IMG/VR virus record: IMGVR_UViG_3300020205_000654
Location: 1 to 27,709 of that record
Source: a virus
DNA length: 27,709 nucleotides
Direction: 5' to 3' (one strand)
Shown: positions 490 to 22,100 of the stretch, piece after piece
Layout: each line of letters opens with the position of its first letter
Numbering within the stretch: the stretch's first letter is position 1
Position numbers and translations under genes: made by a program
Notes under the pieces: model-generated
Database searches by the model: none
The model's input: only the letters and a program-made list of their open reading frames with translations
What the model was told of the DNA's origin: nothing

Positions 490-1026
490 TTATAAGTAAA
501 ATTTAGGATTCGTATTGTATTCTTGAAATAAAGGCAAAGACTTATCTCTTTCACTTAGAATCAGAGAATCCTTTGTTGCTCCCCACTGGATATTTAGCCA
601 AGCATCGAAAGGGTTTATTCCGCTTTCAGCCTTGCTGTTGTACTTCTTAGAAGTTTTGTATTGAACATGAGTATTGTCTTCTAAACTAATAAATCCATGA
701 GCAAATCCAGCAGGAACCCATAGTTGTTTTCGATTAGACGAACTTAGTTCATAGTAAAAAACTTTACCATAGTTTTTTGAAGTTGATCGAATATCGACTA
801 TCACATCTATAATTGATCCATTTGAAACTCTTACAAGTTTATCTTGTGGCTCATTCCACTGATAATGTAAACCTCTAATCACATTCTTTTTAGAAATTGA
901 GTGATTGTCTTGAATAAACGCACAATTGATTCCGTTTTGCTGCATAAAATATTCAGAAAAGGACTCATAAAACAATCCACGATTGTCTTCATAAGCAGCA
1001 GTAATCAATATTTTTGGTTCATTCAT
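490..1026 (-). CDS. rfbC: dTDP-4-dehydrorhamnose 3,5-epimerase-like protein (RfbC/RmlC family)
   Basis: The 178-residue product has the usual length and cupin motifs of RmlC. RGLHYQ at residues 51-56 carries the catalytic histidine (H54), DVIVDIR lies at 74-80, PAGFAHGF at 105-112, and the tyrosine expected to act as general acid is near Y129. RmlC epimerises C3 and C5 of a 4-keto-6-deoxy nucleotide sugar on the way to dTDP-rhamnose or a related sugar in the cytoplasm. The start ATG (1024-1026) overlaps, as ATGA, the stop of the frame that continues downstream of the preceding gene. The rest of the rhamnose pathway (RmlA, B, D) is not in the window, so the substrate may come from the host or from genes further left; related epimerases act on other 4-keto sugars. 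Confidence 0.88.
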   Translation of the reverse strand: MNEPKILITAAYEDNRGLFYESFSEYFMQQNGINCAFIQDNHSISKKNVIRGLHYQWNEPQDKLVRVSNGSIIDVIVDIRSTSKNYGKVFYYELSSSNRKQLWVPAGFAHGFISLEDNTHVQYKTSKKYNSKAESGINPFDAWLNIQWGATKDSLILSERDKSLPLFQEYNTNPKFYL

Positions 1027-1139
1027 ATCACTTGAAAATTTTCAACTCTTCGACTATAAGAAGAACGATCTACCAACTCCCAATCATTTCTAATGAAACC
1101 AAGATAATCCAATTGCTCATATTCTCTTAAAAGAATATT
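1023..1139 (-). pseudogene. In-frame C-terminal continuation of the preceding transferase gene, cut off by a TAA
   Basis: Immediately after the TAA at 1140-1142 the same reading frame stays open for 38 codons, starting NILLREYEQLDYLGF and ending SRRVENFQVI. It stops at TGA 1023-1025, which overlaps the rfbC start as ATGA. That is the junction type used at several other places in this operon. The translated segment has a normal mix of residues and fills what would otherwise be the only unexplained gap of about 110 bases in this part of the cluster. It is most simply the former C-terminus of the gene at 1140-1973. A sequencing or assembly error, or programmed read-through, would give the same picture. 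Confidence 0.6.
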
Positions 1140-1973
1140 TTAATCAGACTTCAAACAGATATCAAGTAGCATTTTATAATATTGTTTTTCACCATATGGG
1201 CATTCATCAAGAGATGAATATATATCAGTTTTACACTCAGAGTACGATTTAACAGATCCAATCCATTGCCCCATTATCAAATCTTCTTCTTGAAGATAAC
1301 CCAATTTAATGCATTTTTCTATATCATCTACTTGATTTCCTAAAACTGAAATTTTCCCAGGATGTCTTCCAGAAATAGAAGATGGTTCTGGGTACTTCAA
1401 TGGAATCTTTAGTGAGCCTATAACTTTTACATCCATTTTTTGAATGTAATCAGATCCTATTAATTCAAACTCCCAAGGATTATTGATTTTTGACAGCACA
1501 TCTATCAACAAATGTCTACGCCAAATGCAAAGTTGAGTAGTTGCTGCATAATTTGCTTGCCCATTGAGCATATACACAGGATCTTCAACAACATCATAAT
1601 CAGAAACTCTATAAGATGGGCTTATTCCCAATTTAGCACAACCAATAGAAGAATCTTTAATCATGCGATTCACAAGATCAAGATAAGAACTATGATCTAA
1701 TGGATGGCTTAATAGATAATCATCCAATCCAAAAATAATAATATCATCTGTAAGTTTAGATAAGTATTCAATCAGATATCTTGACCAAGAATTTGATCCT
1801 CCCCTTTGTTCATCATCCAATGAAACATAAGTTCCAATAGCCAACTCTTCAGTATAATCGCCGTAATTGAGAAAAAAAATATCAAACTCATTTGGCATAT
1901 ACTTTTTTAATAAATATGAACTAGTAGAAAGAATCTTTTTGCTTCCACTATAACCAATGAGAATTATTCTCAT
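1140..1973 (-). CDS. Putative glycosyltransferase-like protein, probably C-terminally truncated
   Basis: The 277-residue protein starts with a beta-alpha-like MRIILIGYSGSKK. It has an acidic DDYLL motif near residues 84-88, preceded by hydrophobic IIIFG, that resembles a GT-A metal-binding site, and a later CIWRRHLL followed by NPWEFELIGSDY. That WR...WEFE...GS pattern is one I associate with transferases in polysaccharide clusters, but I cannot name the family with certainty. The start overlaps the stop of the upstream dehydratase gene as ATGA. The TAA stop at 1140-1142 is followed by 38 more open codons in the same frame (1023-1139), so the full protein may have had 316 residues. The sequence is AT-rich relative to the phage core. 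Confidence 0.75.
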   Translation of the reverse strand: MRIILIGYSGSKKILSTSSYLLKKYMPNEFDIFFLNYGDYTEELAIGTYVSLDDEQRGGSNSWSRYLIEYLSKLTDDIIIFGLDDYLLSHPLDHSSYLDLVNRMIKDSSIGCAKLGISPSYRVSDYDVVEDPVYMLNGQANYAATTQLCIWRRHLLIDVLSKINNPWEFELIGSDYIQKMDVKVIGSLKIPLKYPEPSSISGRHPGKISVLGNQVDDIEKCIKLGYLQEEDLIMGQWIGSVKSYSECKTDIYSSLDECPYGEKQYYKMLLDICLKSD

Positions 1974-2830
1974 ATCAACTCCATAATTTCTTCGATAGTA
2001 AATCTCTCAACTTGGGAAGAATTAAGACCACCTTCAACAATTATCTCATGGAAATTTTCTCCAGGTTGTAATCCTATTGTTTTTACTTTAGCAGTTTTTC
2101 CCTTTTGAAGATATTTACGAATCATTGCTTCAAGAAGATCACCAACTGCCATTGATTTCATTTCTGGAACATATGGTTTGGAATCTTTAGCATTTTGCAA
2201 ACAATCAAAAATAAGGTCTATTGCTTGACCAACGGTCCAATAGAAGCGAGTTGCTTTTGGATCAGTGATTATCACTTCTTCATCCTTTTGAAGACGCTCT
2301 TTCCATTTACAAAGAACCGATCCTGTCGAATACAGAACATTTCCATACCGAACTGTCCTATATTTTGTATTGGGATTTATCCTTTCATAATCCGTAAAGA
2401 GGCGTTCGTGAAGAAGTTTTGTTGCACCATAAACACCATTAACTTGTACTGCTTTGTCGGTACTAATACCTAACATAAATTCAATTGGATATTTACGAGT
2501 TAACTCAAGATAATTCAATGTTCCTGTTACATTGCCAAGAACACACTCACGAACATTATGTTCAGCAAGACCAACATATTTAAATGCAGCAAGATGAAAA
2601 ATCGCATCTACACCTTGTATTGCTTTTTCTGCACAATAAGGATCTGAGATATCACCAGGAATAATGTCTATAAATGGAAATTTTTCCTTAAGAGATACGA
2701 GTTTTCCTTCGTTTCTAGAAATTGTCACAATATTGTGACAATTTTCTTTTTGAAGACGAGCGATCAATTCTTGTCCAAGAAATCCACCACCGCCAGTTAT
2801 AAGATATCTGCTATTTTTATTCAAAACCAT
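1970..2830 (-). CDS. Nucleotide-sugar 4,6-dehydratase/epimerase, PseB/FlaA1/CapD-like (extended SDR)
   Basis: The 286-residue protein has the NAD(P)-binding glycine motif TGGGGFLG (12-19), GDISD at 59-63, FHLAAFKYV at 78-86, and the STDKAV (123-128) plus YGATK (134-138) active-site pair typical of the PseB/FlaA1 type of UDP-GlcNAc 4,6-dehydratase. RYGNVL (161-166) and the later TRF segment fit the same family. Such enzymes make a 4-keto-6-deoxy sugar nucleotide in the cytoplasm, which an epimerase such as the RfbC-like protein or an aminotransferase can take further. A strong ribosome site (AAAGGAG) precedes the ATG. It is separated from the methyltransferase gene by 128 bases that hold a gene relic. 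Confidence 0.88.
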   Translation of the reverse strand: MVLNKNSRYLITGGGGFLGQELIARLQKENCHNIVTISRNEGKLVSLKEKFPFIDIIPGDISDPYCAEKAIQGVDAIFHLAAFKYVGLAEHNVRECVLGNVTGTLNYLELTRKYPIEFMLGISTDKAVQVNGVYGATKLLHERLFTDYERINPNTKYRTVRYGNVLYSTGSVLCKWKERLQKDEEVIITDPKATRFYWTVGQAIDLIFDCLQNAKDSKPYVPEMKSMAVGDLLEAMIRKYLQKGKTAKVKTIGLQPGENFHEIIVEGGLNSSQVERFTIEEIMELI

Positions 2831-2861
2831 CCAAGGCTCCTTTGTTTACTCACTATAATTA

Positions 2862-2951
2862 TTAAATATTTACTGCTAGATAATCATCTTGTTCTCTTAA
2901 AGAGTGTTTCAGTCTATAACCATTCAAAATAACCAACACCGTTTCTGACAT
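2862..2951 (-). pseudogene. Relic of a glycosyltransferase N-terminus (29 codons)
   Basis: In the 128-base gap between the methyltransferase and the dehydratase there is an open frame of 29 codons from ATG (2949-2951) to TAA (2862-2864). It reads MSETVLVILNGYRLKHSLRE and then nine more residues. The ILNGYRxxHSLxEQ pattern resembles the first beta-alpha unit of GT-A glycosyltransferases (typically VILN.Y.RP..L.EQ). No Shine-Dalgarno sequence precedes it and nothing recognisable continues in other frames after the stop. It is best read as the remaining 5' end of a lost transferase gene. It could instead be a real short peptide or chance. Confidence 0.4.
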
Positions 2952-2958
2952 AAGAATG

Positions 2959-3711
2959 TCATTTGATTAAGTATGAATTTATGCCAGATATTACTGCCAC
3001 ATCATTCTCAATACATCCTTTCTTCAAAAGAATTTCTCTTAAGTATGAGGATTCTTTGAAGAAAGGTATATGATTTCCACATTGATGAAGTGCAACCAAA
3101 ACGCCTTTGTCTAACAAATTTGAGCCAGACACCATATCTATGGTGTCTGTTGTGCATTCACTCAAAGCCCAAGTGCTTATAAAAAGAGAACAATCTTCTG
3201 CTTTTTCTATACAGTCTAGTTTTGTACTATCAATAAGATCAACACCCTCTATACTCATTCTATTCAAATAGTTTTTTTGTATCTCTCCCATTTTTGGAAG
3301 ATCAAATATTGTGTATGATCCAATATATTCCGAAAAGCAATATGAAAATACCTTTGCCATATTTCCATAGCCACCACCCCATTCAACAATGTCCAATTGT
3401 TCATTTAGTTTTTCAATTGAACTAAAATATCTACACAGATGATAAAGATGATGTGTGTCATTCGGACAAAGTTTGATTCCTTTGTAATCATACAGTGTTG
3501 CGCTAGACAATACAGGAGCATCAAAAAGTGCTTCTAATCGCATTTGATGATTGGTTTTTAAATACTCTATTTCTTTCGAAAATAGAGAGTAATCAGACTG
3601 ATACATTGTTCTTATTATTGTCTGATCTTGCAACAAATATTCTATGTTTGATCCAACAGATAATAATTGATTTTGATTTCGCACCCATTCATCTTTAACT
3701 AAATTCATCAT
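2959..3711 (-). CDS. Putative sugar O-methyltransferase (SAM-dependent)
   Basis: The 250-residue protein has a class I SAM-binding loop, VEWGGGYGN (109-117), and TIFDLPK (134-140), as in the putative sugar O-methyltransferase families of O-antigen and capsule clusters. An N-terminal helical part of about 100 residues precedes the Rossmann domain. The first ATG (3709-3711) overlaps the stop of the FkbM-like gene. A second ATG follows directly (3706-3708), and the Shine-Dalgarno GGGGAG is better spaced for the second, so the true start may be one codon later. Its likely role is to methylate a hydroxyl of a nucleotide sugar or of a sugar already in the chain. The exact position methylated cannot be told from sequence. 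Confidence 0.78.
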   Translation of the reverse strand: MMNLVKDEWVRNQNQLLSVGSNIEYLLQDQTIIRTMYQSDYSLFSKEIEYLKTNHQMRLEALFDAPVLSSATLYDYKGIKLCPNDTHHLYHLCRYFSSIEKLNEQLDIVEWGGGYGNMAKVFSYCFSEYIGSYTIFDLPKMGEIQKNYLNRMSIEGVDLIDSTKLDCIEKAEDCSLFISTWALSECTTDTIDMVSGSNLLDKGVLVALHQCGNHIPFFKESSYLREILLKKGCIENDVAVISGINSYLIK

Positions 3712-4322
3712 ATTCTCCCCACAGAAATTATATCAGAATATTCCATATTGTTAAATAAGAAATTTGAGTATTTTTCTTCTTTGATAAAACTAGGATCTAT
3801 GTACCAATCTTCGAAAGGATTGCCCGAGTTTTTAACATTTTCTACTATTAGTTTATATCCATAATATTCTAAAAGTTGTCTTGCTTTGAATTTATATTCA
3901 GTCCCACTTGTGTATAGATCGTGTTCAAAAGTTATGACATTGAATCTATATTCATCTAAAGGTATCTTGCTCAAAGCCATATAAGTATTATATGGTGGTT
4001 CAATGTCAACACTCAAATAATCTATTCTTTTTTCATTGAAATTTTGGTCAAGGATTTCCTTATAATTTGCAGTTGTTGCATCTGCACATATACATTTATT
4101 TTTTCTCTTTGATTTAAAAAACTCTACTAAATCTTGTCTTATTTCAATAGAAAATCCATTCCAACCAAAATCATTTTCTAACAAATAAGTATTACTAATA
4201 GAAATAGGTTCGTTCGCACCTATTTCTAGATAAGAACCGTTCTTCTTATAGTCTAAAATTTCTAGCACGAATAAATCTTGATTTGCTTGTGAAAAATTGG
4301 TTTTTACTTTATCTATAATCAT
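3708..4322 (-). CDS. FkbM-family methyltransferase
   Basis: The 204-residue protein follows the FkbM (Methyltransf_21) plan: SQANQDLFVLE (11-21), the SAM loop YLEIGANEP (31-39), FSIEIR (57-62), and DYLSVDIE (101-108) ahead of FNVITFEHD. Family members O-methylate sugars or natural products and are frequent in surface-glycan clusters. The start overlaps the end of the upstream glycosyltransferase by 14 bases, with GAGGGG as ribosome site inside that gene. The stop overlaps the next methyltransferase as ATGA. Two neighbouring methyltransferases suggest a glycan carrying more than one methyl group, or one enzyme acting as a chain cap. AT-rich. Confidence 0.85.
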   Translation of the reverse strand: MIIDKVKTNFSQANQDLFVLEILDYKKNGSYLEIGANEPISISNTYLLENDFGWNGFSIEIRQDLVEFFKSKRKNKCICADATTANYKEILDQNFNEKRIDYLSVDIEPPYNTYMALSKIPLDEYRFNVITFEHDLYTSGTEYKFKARQLLEYYGYKLIVENVKNSGNPFEDWYIDPSFIKEEKYSNFLFNNMEYSDIISVGRI

Positions 4323-5148
4323 TTATACCCCTCAATAGTGAAAAATAGTTTTTAGAAGATTGGATCAATGATAGGGATTCAACAATAAACTGTCTTGGTT
4401 TGAAACTATCTAATTTACTATAAAATGATACAAATCCATCCATAGATTTATGCTTTTCCCCACACCTCTCATCAAAATATGGAACTGATGTTGCGGGAAA
4501 AGAGAAACCTTCATAATCATCCCACATATCTTTATCTAAGACATAACAAGGAACACCCATAGACAATATCTCTTGATAAGCAATTCCTTGGCTTTCTGTT
4601 TTTGTAAGTAGAACACAAGATTTTGATTTTCTAACAAGAGATATAAACTCTTCTTCTTTATAGTTTCCATATCTCACAATAGCAACTCGCAATCCAATAT
4701 TCTCTAAATATTCCTTTACTGTGCTTATCTGGGATTCTCTTCCCTTCACATAAAGGAGAACATCCCATTGCTTCTTCTCTTCTGATGGGCAAAATTTATC
4801 TGTATCTATTCCCACAGCCCAAATATTCAATTTTGCTGTCCCTCTTTTTACGCATTCAAAATTTGAGTATTTATTCATAACCCATTGGCACGGAACTACT
4901 ACATTTTCAAATCTATTCCATATCCATCCCATTTCGGTTGGAATCACACAAAGATTTGGGCCAACTAGAGTATTTCTGCTCAATTGAGACATGGGAGTTC
5001 CCCAACTTTGTAAACAACCATTATACTCTCCCAATTGGTTGTGTAGAACTTCTATTCCGTTGAGTTCCAATCCTTTTACAAGATTTGATACAACTTTACC
5101 AGGACCATTGTTATTTCCTTGTGTTGAATAGAACAATCCAACTTTCAT
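4309..5148 (-). CDS. GT4-like glycosyltransferase (GT-B fold)
   Basis: The start is taken at the ATG of 5146-5148, giving 279 residues beginning MKVGLFYSTQ, because it overlaps the preceding stop as ATGA; four more codons upstream are open but add nothing conserved. NNNGPGKVV (12-20) matches the N-terminal acceptor/nucleotide loop of GT-B enzymes, and TESQGIAYQEILSMGVP (184-200) is the GT4 E-x7-E-like donor-binding segment, here with S before Q and E193 as the second glutamate. The protein is shorter than typical GT4 enzymes (about 350-400 residues). It should transfer a sugar from a nucleotide donor in the host cytoplasm. This gene marks the upstream edge of the AT-rich half of the cluster. 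Confidence 0.82.
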   Translation of the reverse strand: MKVGLFYSTQGNNNGPGKVVSNLVKGLELNGIEVLHNQLGEYNGCLQSWGTPMSQLSRNTLVGPNLCVIPTEMGWIWNRFENVVVPCQWVMNKYSNFECVKRGTAKLNIWAVGIDTDKFCPSEEKKQWDVLLYVKGRESQISTVKEYLENIGLRVAIVRYGNYKEEEFISLVRKSKSCVLLTKTESQGIAYQEILSMGVPCYVLDKDMWDDYEGFSFPATSVPYFDERCGEKHKSMDGFVSFYSKLDSFKPRQFIVESLSLIQSSKNYFSLLRGINDYR

Positions 5149-5909
5149 ATGACAGTCCACCCTTCACAATATACATCATTCCATTGTTGTGGAACGGTTG
5201 GATCGCTTCCAAACCATTTGGAAGGAGCAACAACATCTTTCTCTTTGCCTAACCATGCCCCCCACCAACTCAATGAACTATTCGCAACGATTGCGCTAGA
5301 ACACTCTGTCATAAGAGCAAAATCATATCCTAAATCCATTTGAGAGAATGGTGAATAAAGAGGGTCAAGAAATGAAAGATTCTCCTTGCACCAAGGAATA
5401 TCATCAGACAGAACTACAAACTTCTTTGCCTTGGAAACCTCTACCGCTCTCTTTATATATTCGACTGTAACAGGAGGATGGCAATGTGAAAAATTGAGAT
5501 AATCACCTCTCCGTACATGGATAAATCCCAATCCTTCATGGATTTGTACAAACTCTTTTGCCTTCTGCACAAACTCTCCCTTGATTCTTAAGTGTTCCCG
5601 CAAAGAATCAGCACAATGAGAAAAATATTTCGGTGATTGGAAATACCCAACAAGATCCGTACCATCAGGTATCTTGTCAATGTCTTCAAGATATACTGTA
5701 GCCGCTCCCCCCGGTTCTCCTATTCTCTGCTTGATGTCACTTGGTTCGCCAAAACGAATCCCATCGAACACATCTCCTAATGTGCATTTAGGGCTTTTTG
5801 GTATGCAGAAATCGTAACCATTCTTCTTGTGCAATCCGAAAAGAACAGCATATTGAAAGAGTTGGTTTCCAAATCGACCGTAGTTACCTATGTTGTAGAA
5901 AGTAATCAT
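5145..5909 (-). CDS. GT11 family alpha-1,2-fucosyltransferase-like protein
   Basis: With the ATG at 5907-5909 (ATGA overlap with the preceding stop) the product has 254 residues. GRFGNQLFQYA (11-21) and the diagnostic HVRRGDY (131-137) are the GT11 fucosyltransferase motifs, followed by FVVLSDD and the C-terminal SSLSWWGAW motif. GT11 enzymes transfer fucose (or a related 6-deoxyhexose) from GDP-fucose to galactose or similar acceptors. They are common in O-antigen clusters. No GDP-fucose synthesis gene is in the window, so the donor must come from the host or from genes outside. Base composition is like the phage core, unlike the genes downstream. Confidence 0.9.
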   Translation of the reverse strand: MITFYNIGNYGRFGNQLFQYAVLFGLHKKNGYDFCIPKSPKCTLGDVFDGIRFGEPSDIKQRIGEPGGAATVYLEDIDKIPDGTDLVGYFQSPKYFSHCADSLREHLRIKGEFVQKAKEFVQIHEGLGFIHVRRGDYLNFSHCHPPVTVEYIKRAVEVSKAKKFVVLSDDIPWCKENLSFLDPLYSPFSQMDLGYDFALMTECSSAIVANSSLSWWGAWLGKEKDVVAPSKWFGSDPTVPQQWNDVYCEGWTVI

Positions 5910-6517
5910 GCTATGCTCTTGTTCGTCCAAAAGGTATTGCGTTCGCATACTTGAAAGAAATAGTGCTTTGGTGTGGCTAGTACATTGTACTGTTCCTGCA
6001 ACATAGCCAAGGCTACATCACAGTGCCTATTCCCTGAAGGATTTTCCAAATAACTCTTCATTGAATCTCTAGCCGCCATACCGTATTCCTTCGTCAAATA
6101 CAACACTGCATGAGCAGATGTCATCCTCTTGATACGGTACAGATCGCCTTGCTTGCTGATAGATGTGGCAGAAGGCATAACGGACTGCTTTGCCCTCTCC
6201 CCATCCCATGCCCACCAACTGTATCCAAGATACAGAGCATCGGCATCGTTTGGAACAGAGACTTCATTGGAATATGCCCCAGTAGTCTGCACATCGTCTT
6301 CCAAGACCAACAAGGGTTCCGAGAAATCATGTGAAGTCAGTACGCCAATGTGGGAAAGAGCACAACCTACAACTGGATCTTTTGACTCAACTCCATCGAA
6401 GAAAGTCCAACGCTCATATCCCAATCCCCCGAGAAGCCTTTTGATTCCATCTCTCCGAAGGGTGGATTTCTGCATGGATATACAGATTGTCTTGATCTTT
6501 CTTAGATCAACTTCCAT
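5906..6517 (-). CDS. GT25-like glycosyltransferase (LgtB/LPS biosynthesis type)
   Basis: The longer open frame begins upstream, but the start is placed at ATG 6515-6517 (MEVDLRKIKTICISMQKS) because AGGA sits seven bases before it and the family usually begins close to this strand. The product is 203 residues. VGCALSHIGVL (50-60) and PLLVLEDDV (68-76) are the two conserved GT25 blocks, the second containing the acidic metal-binding residues. Family members add galactose, glucose or similar sugars to lipo-oligosaccharide or protein. The gene overlaps the GT32-like gene by 11 bases and the fucosyltransferase as ATGA, so the three are translated as one unit. Confidence 0.84.
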   Translation of the reverse strand: MEVDLRKIKTICISMQKSTLRRDGIKRLLGGLGYERWTFFDGVESKDPVVGCALSHIGVLTSHDFSEPLLVLEDDVQTTGAYSNEVSVPNDADALYLGYSWWAWDGERAKQSVMPSATSISKQGDLYRIKRMTSAHAVLYLTKEYGMAARDSMKSYLENPSGNRHCDVALAMLQEQYNVLATPKHYFFQVCERNTFWTNKSIA

Positions 6518-7148
6518 ATTCGTATCCTGATCCTGGAGTGCTGCCCCACAACTGTCTGGCGTAAATCTTTGCTCCACCTGTGTATTCCATTCCTGTATAG
6601 TGACGGGGGATGAAATAGAAACTAGGATAGACAGCAAGATTTGAATATTTGTACTTGTGTACGGTTTCGGTCAAGAACACAGGGCCTACCGTTTTCCATG
6701 CACTCTTTCCACCTTCCCAAATTTTGGTGTGATCCTTTGCATGGAGATCGTTGACAAGTATCTTGATAAGACTATTATTCTTGCAAACTCCAAGATATCC
6801 TGCGGCTATAAGACCAGGGCGAACCAACTCGTTCTCATAGCAGGCAAAGGAATCATTCTGTAGAAGATAATCATCCAGCGGATTCACACAAACGGCATCT
6901 GCATCTAGAAAGAATCCACCAAAACGCTCAAGGATTTCCCAACGGGCAATGTCGCATTTGCCATTCCACTCAGGCATATAATCGTAGTGCTTCTGATTAT
7001 ACAGCCCATTTGGGAAGTATTCATGGAGCATCTCTTCTGTCCATAGAATATGCTCCCAAGTGGGATGTGCATCTTTCCAAGTTTGGATGAGATTCATTGG
7101 AGGTGGCTTAGGGCCTACCCAAAACTGATGGATAATCTTCGGTATCAT
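6507..7148 (-). CDS. GT32-like glycosyltransferase with DxD motif (Gly_transf_sug)
   Basis: The 213-residue protein begins IPKIIHQFWVG, the classical start of the DXD-sugar transferase family (GT32, OCH1-like and capsular transferases). CDIARWEIL (65-73) and GGFFLDADAV (77-86), with D82 and D84 as the DxD pair, complete the donor-binding site. A GAGG ribosome site lies eight bases ahead of the ATG. It is the first gene of the sugar operon, directly downstream of regA, where gp43 (DNA polymerase) would be expected in T4-like genomes. Base composition is like that of the core genes. Confidence 0.9.
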   Translation of the reverse strand: MIPKIIHQFWVGPKPPPMNLIQTWKDAHPTWEHILWTEEMLHEYFPNGLYNQKHYDYMPEWNGKCDIARWEILERFGGFFLDADAVCVNPLDDYLLQNDSFACYENELVRPGLIAAGYLGVCKNNSLIKILVNDLHAKDHTKIWEGGKSAWKTVGPVFLTETVHKYKYSNLAVYPSFYFIPRHYTGMEYTGGAKIYARQLWGSTPGSGYEYGS

Positions 7149-7253: not shown

Positions 7254-7283
7254 ATAAGTATATATTTATCTCTTTCCTTTGTC
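7173..7283. repeat. 18-bp perfect direct repeat at the regA 3' end and 93 bases downstream
   Basis: TTATCTCTTTCCTTTGTC occurs at 7173-7190 and at 7266-7283 on the plus strand. The right copy is the end of regA including its stop codon; the left copy ends the 26-codon frame. Flanking bases differ on both sides, and weaker similarity extends about 12 bases further into regA. The pair brackets the border between the conserved replication genes and the sugar operon. Confidence 0.85.
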
Positions 7284-7694
7284 CTTACCAATATGATACT
7301 TTGGCTCTAGAGTCCACTCCTTCTTCTCGGAGTGAGCAAGAATCTTGATTTGGTTGATCTCACAAGCAGGATCAGCCTTTGTGGGATCCACTATCTTGAG
7401 CAAGCCCCACTCCTGTAAAAGCAAGCCAATCTTGTTTCGGCGGGCAATGTCCTCTTCACCCAAGTTCGTAGGCAAACCGTCAAGGGCAAACAGTTCCTTG
7501 AAATGGGTAACATAATACTTGCCACGCTTGTGCAGGATATGGCAAGACTGCCACAGTTTCTTATCTTTATTGGAACAAACCCCGATACGGGTCAGGGTTT
7601 CTTTTACCTTAAGAAAGTTTTCGGCAGTTACTAATTCTACTTCAAGTAAATCTTTAATATCAATATCAATATATTTTTCTTCTTTATCACTCAT
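7266..7694 (-). CDS. regA: RegA translational repressor
   Basis: The 142-residue product matches T4 RegA (122 residues): ENFLKVKETLTRIG (25-38), LWQSCHILHKRGKYYVTHFKE (47-67) and the C-terminal EWTLEPKYHIG are all recognisable. RegA binds the start regions of early phage mRNAs and blocks ribosome binding, including on its own message in T4. The first 20 or so residues (MSDKEEKYIDIDIKDLLEVE) are extra relative to T4. The gene follows gp62 with an 82-base spacer that can fold into a long hairpin containing the ribosome site. T4 has DNA polymerase gp43 next; here the sugar operon follows. Confidence 0.95.
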   Translation of the reverse strand: MSDKEEKYIDIDIKDLLEVELVTAENFLKVKETLTRIGVCSNKDKKLWQSCHILHKRGKYYVTHFKELFALDGLPTNLGEEDIARRNKIGLLLQEWGLLKIVDPTKADPACEINQIKILAHSEKKEWTLEPKYHIGKDKGKR

Positions 7695-7697
7695 GCG

Positions 7698-7776
7698 TAC
7701 AACCTCATTCTGGTGTTTGTTTCCCCAACTCTTATGTATGTAATAAGGGGGGTCTAAACATCAGAATGAGGTTGTA
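7698..7776 (-). promoter_or_regulatory. Long RNA hairpin between gp62 and regA enclosing the regA ribosome site
   Basis: The arms TACAACCTCATTCTG (7698-7712) and CAGAATGAGGTTGTA (7762-7776) are perfect 15-base complements. After one mismatch five more pairs follow (7714-7718 with 7756-7760). Inside, CCCC/GGGG (7723-7726 with 7749-7752) and CTTAT/ATAAG (7731-7735 with 7743-7747) can extend the stem. The 5' arm in the mRNA begins directly after the gp62 stop codon. The 3' arm contains the only Shine-Dalgarno-like GAGG before the regA ATG at 7692-7694. Folding would hide that site, and a ribosome finishing gp62 would open it. The repeat is seen directly; the coupling role is inference. Confidence 0.75.
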
Positions 7777-8157
7777 TTACTCTCCGTGGGCGGTTTCATA
7801 TTCTTGTAATATTTTACCGCTGTCTTCGGGAGTTAGAATTTGTAAATATTCTTCTGCACGGCGACGGGATATTTCATAAAACCATGCAACTGCTTCTGTA
7901 CTCTTTGATTCTTCCTTTTTCTGCCAAGGAGAAAACCGCTTGCGCTTTCGCACAGAACCAAAAAGATAATCATAGTGCATCTTTCGATCTATAACCATTT
8001 TTGAATTCAATTCATTTGCATAAAATATTGTGTCAGGAAAATTTGACAAACATCGGGCTATGATATAGGGAACATATTCCCGCTCATTATCCCGATTGAT
8101 TATCGGTTCCTTGCCTGTATTGATGGAGTTAAGAATATCTCCCAATTTCAGTTTCAT
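7777..8157 (-). CDS. 62: Clamp loader small subunit (gp62-like)
   Basis: The 126-codon gene lies between gp44 and regA, where T4 has gene 62. The similarity to T4 gp62 is limited but visible: RCLSNFPDTIFYANELNS, HYDYLFGSVRKRKRFSPW and the following acidic-helical part correspond to ALSQFPE..., FNYLMAAVPRGKRYGKW in T4. At 126 residues against 187 it is clearly shorter, lacking much of the N- and C-terminal parts, as in other distant T4-like phages. gp62 joins four gp44 subunits to load the gp45 clamp. The ATG overlaps the gp44 stop as ATGA, which fits the coupled synthesis of the two subunits. Confidence 0.85.
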   Translation of the reverse strand: MKLKLGDILNSINTGKEPIINRDNEREYVPYIIARCLSNFPDTIFYANELNSKMVIDRKMHYDYLFGSVRKRKRFSPWQKKEESKSTEAVAWFYEISRRRAEEYLQILTPEDSGKILQEYETAHGE

Positions 8158-15370: not shown

Positions 15371-15410
15371 GCGTTCTCCGAGCCATTAAAACTACTTATA
15401 TGTATTAATT

Positions 15411-16461: not shown

Positions 16462-17073
16462 TCAAATATCGGTATCCTCTAAAAGATTTTCAAAACCCTT
16501 TGGTTTTCTCTTCTTTGCAGTCTTTCCTTTGCCACGCTTATCTTCTTTGTTTAGATCTTTTGTAAAGTTGTCAATATCGTTTTCAGTAAGATCAAATGTT
16601 TTTGCTGCGGGATCACGGTACTCCATCGTGGAATCTTGGTCTTCCATACCCCTCATTCTAAACACAAACTTTCCCATATTTCCATCTCCCACACGATCAC
16701 GCACCAACTTGTATTTGATGAATGCTTGTTTCTTTTCACGCTGAATGCGGCGAAGAAATGCATAATATGTGATTTGTGTAAAATAAGAGAATGGATTTGA
16801 ACTCTTATCAGGATCAAAGTTTGCGGCATACACCACACAGTTCTCCACAGCATCGCATATCATTTCTTCACGATATGCATAGTGTGCAAAGTTTGGCTTG
16901 GTTGAAAGTTGTTCCGCAATCTTCAGAAAGCATTCTCCAATGTAAGCAGGAATTCTTGGCTTTGGATCATCAGTATTTTCTGCTTCCCGAATAGCATTCT
17001 TCCATTCTTGCATTACTTGAAAGAACTTTGGATTATCTATATAATGTTCTCTTTTTTCTCTTTTGTTGCTCAA
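16462..17073 (-). CDS. 55: Late-transcription sigma factor gp55, TTG start
   Basis: The start is taken as TTG 17071-17073 (reading MSNKREKREHYIDNPKFF), because AAGGAG lies seven bases upstream and this gives a protein of 203 residues, near T4 gp55 (185); a GTG further upstream would lie within the promoter region. FAHYAYREEMICDAVENCVVYAANFD and NPFSYFTQITYYAFLRRIQREKK (roughly 60-112) match the sigma region 2-like core of gp55, which recognises TATAAATA. The C-terminal tail is basic and then acidic. It directs host RNA polymerase to late promoters together with the gp45 clamp. A host-type promoter lies directly upstream. Confidence 0.93.
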   Translation of the reverse strand: MSNKREKREHYIDNPKFFQVMQEWKNAIREAENTDDPKPRIPAYIGECFLKIAEQLSTKPNFAHYAYREEMICDAVENCVVYAANFDPDKSSNPFSYFTQITYYAFLRRIQREKKQAFIKYKLVRDRVGDGNMGKFVFRMRGMEDQDSTMEYRDPAAKTFDLTENDIDNFTKDLNKEDKRGKGKTAKKRKPKGFENLLEDTDI

Positions 17074-17095
17074 TATGTGTCTCCTTGATAGAGAG

Positions 17096-17123
17096 ATTAT
17101 GCACAGTTTTCCGCAAAAGTCAA
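17096..17123 (-). promoter_or_regulatory. Sigma-70-type promoter for gp55
   Basis: On the minus strand TTGACT (17118-17123) and CATAAT (17096-17101) are separated by 16 bases. Transcription would start near 17089, giving a leader of about 16 bases that contains AAGGAG (17081-17086) and leads into the TTG start of gp55. A near twin with the same TTGACTT and 16-base spacing precedes uvsY. Confidence 0.7.
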
Positions 17124-17130
17124 GAGGATT

Positions 17131-17157
17131 GTTCACTATTTTATTCTAACTGTGAAC
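17131..17157. promoter_or_regulatory. Spaced inverted repeat directly upstream of the gp55 promoter
   Basis: GTTCAC (17131-17136) and GTGAAC (17152-17157) are perfect inverted half-sites with centres 21 bases apart, two turns of B-DNA. They end seven bases before the -35 hexamer. A dimeric regulator could bind here. The half-sites are short, so chance is possible. Confidence 0.4.
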
Positions 17158-17983: not shown

Positions 17984-19549
17984 TTATAGGTCCAATCGTA
18001 CCAAATGATAGTCGAACTTCTCTTGTATGTATAGGTTTACCCGTTCGGTTAAGTGCTTGAGCGTATGGTTGCGGTGTGCCTTAATGCTCAGGTCATCACC
18101 AATATCAAACAGCCTTGCACAAGTTTTGTGTTCAGATTTACGAAGTTGTCGTCCAATGGATTGCAGCACACGAATACGGGATTTTGATGGAGATGCAAAG
18201 ATGATATTGTGTAAACGCCGAATAGAAATTCCTGTGGAGAATGTTCCATAAGACGCAACAATGATTGCATTCTCATTAGCCTCTGCAAGCAAGCGCACTT
18301 CTTCCCGTGCATCTGCTTCGGTTGCACCGTACACCAAGAAGACTTGGTGCTTGCCATCGGAAAGTTTCTGTATCTGCTTATGCAGCATCTTTCCGTGTTC
18401 TACAAATTGAAACAAGACAAGGGTGTTTCCCTTTAGATTCACCGCCATTTCAGAGATGAATGAATTGCGTTTGGTATTCTCTGTTAGCCACTTGATCTCG
18501 TCTGCATATTTCATGCCCTTTACTTCACGCCGTTGATCTTCTGGATACTTCAGAGTAATGCATTCAATAGAGAGATCAGACAGCAGATTCTTGTCCATCA
18601 AATCCTTGGTGCTTGTTACTTTTACTACCTTGCCAAACAATCCTTCAATCACCAACTTATGTGTTTGTGTGCCATCAAGGGTTCCTGTTGTTCCGATGCG
18701 GTAGTATGCAGACTTTGCCTTTTCCATGATGGACGAAAGGCTTTTTGCCTTGAACAGATGGCATTCGTCTCCAAAGACTGCAAAGAAATCCTCATAGTAT
18801 TCACCCTTCAAGCGGAAAATAGATTGCCAAGTAGAAATAACCACACGGGCTTTTGATGTTTTCTCTTGACCAGAGAAAATCTTTTGACACAGGTGTTTTA
18901 CATCCCAACCATTGTTTTGCGAATAGTCAAGAAAGTCTGCATACATTTGGTTCACAAGACCAACTGTTGGAACAACCAAAAGGATCTTCTTTTTGGGATT
19001 TCTTTCAACCTGATCCAATAGGTAGCGAATGGTAGCGTATATTATGAGTGATTTACCACTTGCCGTTGGAGACAGCAACAAACACCGTTGATCGTTTAGA
19101 GCCGTCATTATTCCATCAACTTGATGATCGTGCGGAGTAATCGCTTTTCCTGCTGCCGTTAGTTGCAGCGAGGAAAGGTATTCTTTTAGTTCATCCCGAT
19201 TCATTGGAAACGGAGGATATGTGCTTTGCTTCCAATAGTTGAAAGGATATCCACGATCCTGTGCAAATTTGCCAAGGTAATCCGCAAGTCCTGCATATAT
19301 TTTCTTGTCGTAGGTATTAAACAGTCGGATATTTCCATCCCACATCTTGTTGCGGTATGCGGGCATGAACTGATATCCAGGAACTTTGAATGTAAAGAAA
19401 TCGGAGAGTTCCTGTGCCACACCACGCTCACATTCCACTTTGAGGTAAACAGCATCAGATTGGGTCACGGTGATATCATTCATTTCATCCTTATTTATAG
19501 GATGAATATCGTCTATAATATCAGCGGCTTCCCAAGGGTATGATGTCAT
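17984..19549 (-). CDS. uvsW: Recombination DNA/RNA helicase UvsW
   Basis: The helicase motifs are clear: SPTASGKS (160-167 of this product), DECH (261-264), a GTTGT motif III-like segment, VASYGTFSTGIS and QSIGRQLRKS. T4 UvsW (503 residues) resolves recombination intermediates and unwinds R-loops, shifting replication from origins to recombination. The start is uncertain. ATG 19547-19549 overlaps the uvsY stop as ATGA and gives 521 residues. ATG 19481-19483 (MNDITVTQSD) gives 499, aligns with the T4 N-terminus and has AAGGA four bases upstream. An exact late motif TATAAATA lies between the two, fitting the late expression of T4 uvsW. Confidence 0.96.
   Translation of the reverse strand: MTSYPWEAADIIDDIHPINKDEMNDITVTQSDAVYLKVECERGVAQELSDFFTFKVPGYQFMPAYRNKMWDGNIRLFNTYDKKIYAGLADYLGKFAQDRGYPFNYWKQSTYPPFPMNRDELKEYLSSLQLTAAGKAITPHDHQVDGIMTALNDQRCLLLSPTASGKSLIIYATIRYLLDQVERNPKKKILLVVPTVGLVNQMYADFLDYSQNNGWDVKHLCQKIFSGQEKTSKARVVISTWQSIFRLKGEYYEDFFAVFGDECHLFKAKSLSSIMEKAKSAYYRIGTTGTLDGTQTHKLVIEGLFGKVVKVTSTKDLMDKNLLSDLSIECITLKYPEDQRREVKGMKYADEIKWLTENTKRNSFISEMAVNLKGNTLVLFQFVEHGKMLHKQIQKLSDGKHQVFLVYGATEADAREEVRLLAEANENAIIVASYGTFSTGISIRRLHNIIFASPSKSRIRVLQSIGRQLRKSEHKTCARLFDIGDDLSIKAHRNHTLKHLTERVNLYIQEKFDYHLVRLDL
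19492..19499 (-). promoter_or_regulatory. Exact T4-type late promoter motif at the start of uvsW
   Basis: TATAAATA on the minus strand is the full T4 late -10 consensus, recognised by gp55. It lies between the two candidate starts of uvsW, and its end is eight bases before ATG 19481-19483, so the transcript would be almost leaderless. T4 uvsW is a late gene, which favours function; the AT-rich codons here could also produce it by chance. Confidence 0.45.
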
Positions 19550-22037: not shown

Positions 22038-22100
22038 TTTTTCTCTCTCCTTTGAAGATTGTAGATTCTACTTGGTTATGTAGTTTTTATTTGATTTGTG

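Follow-up and report, generated by a model that had tools for sequence, protein, structure and literature searches.

A probable late-promoter hairpin switch in the gp62-regA spacer of a T4-like phage

We propose that the spacer between gp62 and regA in the virus record IMGVR_UViG_3300020205_000654 (27,709 bases, analysed at its full length and called the window below) is a two-state timing switch, built around a late-promoter hairpin like those at T4 gene e and I-TevI; we give this reading a probability of about 70%. On the long early 45-44-62-regA message, the hairpin would hide the regA Shine-Dalgarno (SD) sequence, such that little RegA is made, although ribosomes finishing gp62 may allow some RegA synthesis to leak through at this stage. 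Later in infection, RNA polymerase carrying the gp55-type sigma factor would initiate at a TACATA sequence in the hairpin loop, and the resulting short RNA would start past the hairpin's 5' arm, leaving the SD free for RegA to be made. The onset of late transcription would thereby, through RegA, switch off translation of the replication genes. In T4, the gp45 clamp activates late transcription, and the clamp and clamp-loader messages are repressed by RegA; it is because of these two activities that late transcription could shut down replication-gene translation. By analogy with T4, RegA feedback on the clamp operon is plausible in the phage studied here.

The hairpin and the regA ribosome-binding site

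The minus strand of the window carries genes 45, 44, 62 and regA, collinear and in T4 order, with no called terminator in the spacer. The gene for gp62, the clamp-loader small subunit (7777..8157, minus strand; PHROG 225, E 2.2e-37; Pfam Phage_clamp_A), ends in a TAA at 7779-7777. The distance from this stop to the ATG of regA is 82 nt, with stop and start neither overlapping nor adjacent. regA itself (7266..7694, minus strand; PHROG 242, E 5.5e-54) encodes a translational repressor of 142 aa that matches the RegA family (Pfam PF01818, Translat_reg) with 141.8 bits against a curated cut-off of 25 (E 1.3e-41). On the 3' side of regA, where T4 has DNA polymerase gene 43, positions 490-7148 are occupied by glycosyltransferase and sugar-nucleotide genes.

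Structure prediction confirms the hairpin noted in a preliminary description of this DNA. Inverted-repeat search and folding place its 5' arm at 7756..7776 and its 3' arm at 7698..7718 on the minus strand, and the stem consists of the 15 perfect pairs first described, a single A x C mismatch and then five more pairs, plus inner helices. The 171-nt strand has a minimum free energy (MFE) of -47.0, against -22.9 +/- 3.2 for shuffled sequences (z -7.57; 0/200 shuffles as stable), and the arms, 21 nt long and 95% complementary, are by far the best inverted repeat in the window for distances within 200 nt, with no other exceeding 82%. The 5' arm directly follows the gp62 TAA, bearing out the earlier statement that the hairpin begins at that stop codon. 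It was also correctly noted that the only SD-like sequence for regA lies in the 3' arm: this is GAGGT at 7702-7706 on the minus strand, 7 nt 5' of the ATG, and it pairs with 7768-7772 in the 5' arm, 4-8 nt past the gp62 stop. An SD can be recognised in 15 window genes, and regA is the only one of them whose SD is significantly buried; in that comparison, opening it costs 14.7 kcal/mol, against 4.1 kcal/mol in shuffles (0/100). Nothing in the window matches Rfam.

A candidate late promoter in the hairpin loop

The apical loop contains a feature absent from the preliminary description, namely two overlapping TACATA hexamers on the minus strand (7742-7737 and 7738-7733). We propose that the combined sequence, TACATACATA at 7733..7742, is a late-promoter -10 element. 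T4 late promoters have TATAAATA at -13 to -6, and phage Aeh1 uses the variant CTAAATA (PMC1524935). In the window together with contigs of the relatives L001 and L003, no intergenic hexamer is more strongly enriched than TACATA, with 16 occurrences against 0.65 expected from coding DNA, and the antisense strand of the same intergenic stretches has none. Since TACATA is not enriched across the window as a whole (14 versus 12.8), it is its intergenic position that constitutes the evidence. We took as a reference late promoter the TACATA at 22077..22082 (minus strand), which lies 45 nt 5' of the gp23 ATG and is conserved in L164 and L165. Upstream of gp23, the window and two relatives all have TACATA at a distance of 42-45 nt, inside a conserved CTACATA. 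Judged by these sequence patterns, TACATA is likely to be the late promoter of the window's lineage and a form of the T4 element, and the gp55-type late sigma factor encoded at 16462..17136 (minus strand; PHROG 234, E 8.2e-55) would be its expected reader in the loop. Counting against a late promoter at regA, Nolan et al. found late promoters solely before late genes in five phages (PMC1524935).

In this clade, as represented by the window and L176-L179 (contigs of L001 and L003), TACATA seems to have replaced TAAATA as the late-promoter hexamer; L004, whose RegA is 71% identical, carries TAAATA. TACATA also precedes g14192 and g17239 in the replication gene region (15399-15404 and 18026-18031), where the SDs are unburied and the copy before g17239 lies inside the end of a helicase gene.

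With T4 geometry, the predicted +1 of the late transcript is at 7727 on the minus strand, the sixth nucleotide after the second hexamer, and the position and geometry of the hexamer are compatible with a late transcript that lacks the 5' arm. The regA SD is predicted to cost 16.3 kcal/mol to open on RNA that begins upstream of the gp62 stop and 1.2 kcal/mol on RNA from the predicted late start; when RNA is folded from 7727, its MFE structure leaves the SD unpaired. When the sequence upstream of the predicted start is shuffled, the mean cost is 3.8 kcal/mol, with 0/50 shuffles reaching the native value. These values depend on how much upstream sequence is included: 20 nt excludes the 5' arm of the window and gives 2.4 kcal/mol, 45 nt gives 16.3 kcal/mol, and the RNA in the larger set described below extends past the gp62 stop. 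Folding thus predicts an SD that is hidden on the long RNA by pairing with an upstream arm, as expected for a T4-type late-promoter hairpin, and regA translation from that RNA would be low. We infer that the loop hexamer is active as a promoter, with transcription starting at or near 7727.

The same arrangement has been established experimentally for T4 gene e and I-TevI. On the early read-through RNA of T4 gene e, which encodes lysozyme, the ribosome site is hidden, and the late RNA lacks the 5' strand of the hairpin (PMC3014915). The late promoter of gene e is situated within the DNA that encodes this 5' strand, so that its late RNA omits the strand, as is predicted for the late RNA of the window; the promoter is in the arm in gene e and in the loop in the window, and gene e belongs to the late lysis genes, whereas regA is a repressor gene inside the replication operon. 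Similarly, the ribosome-binding sites of I-TevI, I-TevII, I-TevIII, segB and mobE are buried on early or middle transcripts and freed on late ones (PMC2988022); the predicted burial in the window is alike, but those are mobile-element genes and regA is a core phage regulator. In T4 and RB69, RegA binds unstructured operators located at start codons (PMC3014915). These operators share RegA and the clamp-loader genes with the window, whose hairpin requires no RegA binding; the hairpin is not a T4 RegA operator, and it also differs from the T4 regA junction. We found no report of a late-promoter hairpin at regA in the literature searched, which mostly excluded subscription journals.

gp62-regA junctions in related phages

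We surveyed 225 distinct gp62-regA junctions in related phages, taken from viral contigs as well as named phages. In 149 of them the spacer measures 20 nt or more, and 139 of these spacers contain TAAATA or TACATA, compared with 36 expected from shuffled spacers and 11 on the opposite strand. By contrast, none of the 74 tight or overlapping junctions (74/223) has the hexamer. These counts come from related sequences and hence are not independent; after clustering at 80% identity, the hexamer is found in 34/39 spacer clusters versus 0/38 tight clusters. On supported branches of a RegA tree, the tight-junction label changes at least six times and the hairpin label at least 12 times, and supported pairs are too few for an independent-pairs test on this tree to reach 0.05. 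The survey shows that there are two gp62-regA layouts, one tight and without a promoter hexamer, the other with both spacer and hexamer, and that phages have switched between them several times. In T4, where the gene order 45-44-62-regA is the same, one base separates the gp62 stop from regA, and in S-PM2, Syn1, P-SSM4, HTVC008M and Mosig the two genes overlap by 4 nt; across the cultured cyanophages and pelagiphages compared, the overlap is about that size. At the junctions of T4 and these five phages, spacer, promoter hexamer and hairpin are all missing. A spacer of 33-34 nt with TAAATA occurs in KVP40-like Vibrio phages. The spacer layout is common to many relatives of the window, and T4 and most of the cultured relatives checked lack it. 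In L052, L053, L283, L313 and others, the gp62 stop TAA is itself within the TATAAATA hexamer region before regA.

Burial of the SD was assessed in two sets of junctions, using SD sites picked by a simple rule. In the first (45 nt upstream of the hexamer, 100 shuffles, significance at no more than five shuffles), the SD is significantly buried at 24/39 regA sites versus 2/39 gp23 control sites with the same hexamers. Mean opening costs for regA are 6.53 on the long RNA, 1.81 on the late RNA and 2.75 in shuffles; the corresponding values for gp23 are 2.44, 2.10 and 2.56. In the larger set (RNA extended past the gp62 stop, 50 shuffles), the SD is significantly buried in 54 of the 109 testable promoter-bearing junctions, 58 differ by more than 2 kcal/mol, and a further 30 promoter-bearing junctions fall outside the SD test. 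Thus, wherever there is a spacer the promoter is nearly always present, whereas the hairpin is common yet optional: the SD is significantly buried at only around half of the promoter-bearing junctions that could be tested. In most of 49 clear hairpins, the SD partner ends 2-7 nt past the hexamer, just 5' of the predicted start; in the others, the window among them, the partner is upstream and the loop contains the promoter. Starting transcription at the sixth nucleotide, the T4 position, relieves 49/49 of these hairpins, and offsets of 3-11 nt relieve from 41/49 to 46/48 or more. The energy runs for the 39- and 109-junction sets and for the ribosome test described below used the seventh nucleotide past the hexamer rather than the sixth, a choice to which the results are insensitive.

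The window clade, as listed, has eight members (the window, L001, L002, L202, L003, L198, L199 and L203; L200 resembles L198), and all eight have TACATA 41-45 nt before the regA start. The SD is significantly buried in the window, L001, L002 and L202. The stem conservation sought by the preliminary description did not hold up across the clade, since the other four members have no significant SD hairpin and keep the promoter hexamer. Those four (L003, L198, L199 and L203) share a different hairpin, ACCGTTTTCCTACATAT...GACGGT, with TACATA in its loop and the SD outside. Between the window and L002, the outer stem has two compensatory pairs (U-A/C-G and C-G/A-U) and one broken pair, a count from two sequences that does not beat a shuffle control (120/500). 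L202 and L001 have their 5' arm elsewhere, and it pairs with the same conserved 3' arm. In an alignment of four sequences the 3' arm is conserved and the 5' arms shift; this alignment was unsuitable for pair counts.

Alternative explanations and implications

The preliminary description had proposed that regA is translationally coupled to gp62, with a ribosome that ends gp62 translation opening the stem so that regA is made in step; the hexamer in the loop would then be a chance occurrence. This is physically possible in the window: the SD partner lies just 4-8 nt past the gp62 stop, and with the 9-15 nt beyond that stop occupied by a ribosome, the SD is computed to open for 0.6-1.9 rather than 16.3 kcal/mol; moreover, tight junctions suited to coupling are common among the relatives. 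Nonetheless, we consider it an unlikely account. A ribosome at the gp62 stop halves the opening cost in only 25, 27 or 33 of the 49 clear hairpins, the window's included (footprints of 9, 12 and 15 nt), because many SD partners lie 19-33 nt, and once 51 nt, past the stop; with a late start, 48-49 of the 49 are unblocked. The near-constant presence of the hexamer in spacers and its absence from all tight junctions also speak against coupling, and an AUG 82 nt from the stop is beyond the reach of simple reinitiation. Coupling may thus act in the window, but it lacks support as a mechanism that is general or exclusive. The 74 T4-like relatives that do look coupled have neither spacer nor promoter. 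The stronger claim, that regA is made only when gp62 is translated, would also fail if the loop promoter is active.

Somewhat less likely again is that both processes act, with leaky coupling from the early message and full expression from the late one. Each mode of opening was computed for the window, but this combination is inseparable from the timing switch by sequence alone and differs from it just in the early yield of RegA. A long perfect stem might also suggest an RNA processing or stability element, such as a double-strand cleavage site at which cutting frees the SD; we regard this as improbable, since it fails to predict the association of spacer, hexamer and a 5' arm that precedes the start. 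Lastly, despite the strong hairpin at a gene junction, a terminator or repeated mobile element can be dismissed almost entirely: no T run follows the hairpin on either strand, the terminator scan does not list it, and its sequence occurs once, with no second copy within the window.

Returning to the timing switch, a device known from T4 late genes and homing-endonuclease genes seems to be located at a core regulator of many lineages of T4-like phages. We suggest tentatively, at slightly under even odds, that many T4-like phages seen only in metagenomes time RegA, their global translational repressor, by a late-promoter hairpin switch that replaces the tight junction found in T4 and cultured cyanophages, such that clamp-activated late transcription shuts off translation of the clamp operon before it. 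Under this proposal, RegA would be made late in phages with the spacer layout, unlike in those with the T4 layout, and it would link a gp45-dependent late promoter to the shut-off of the gp45 operon.
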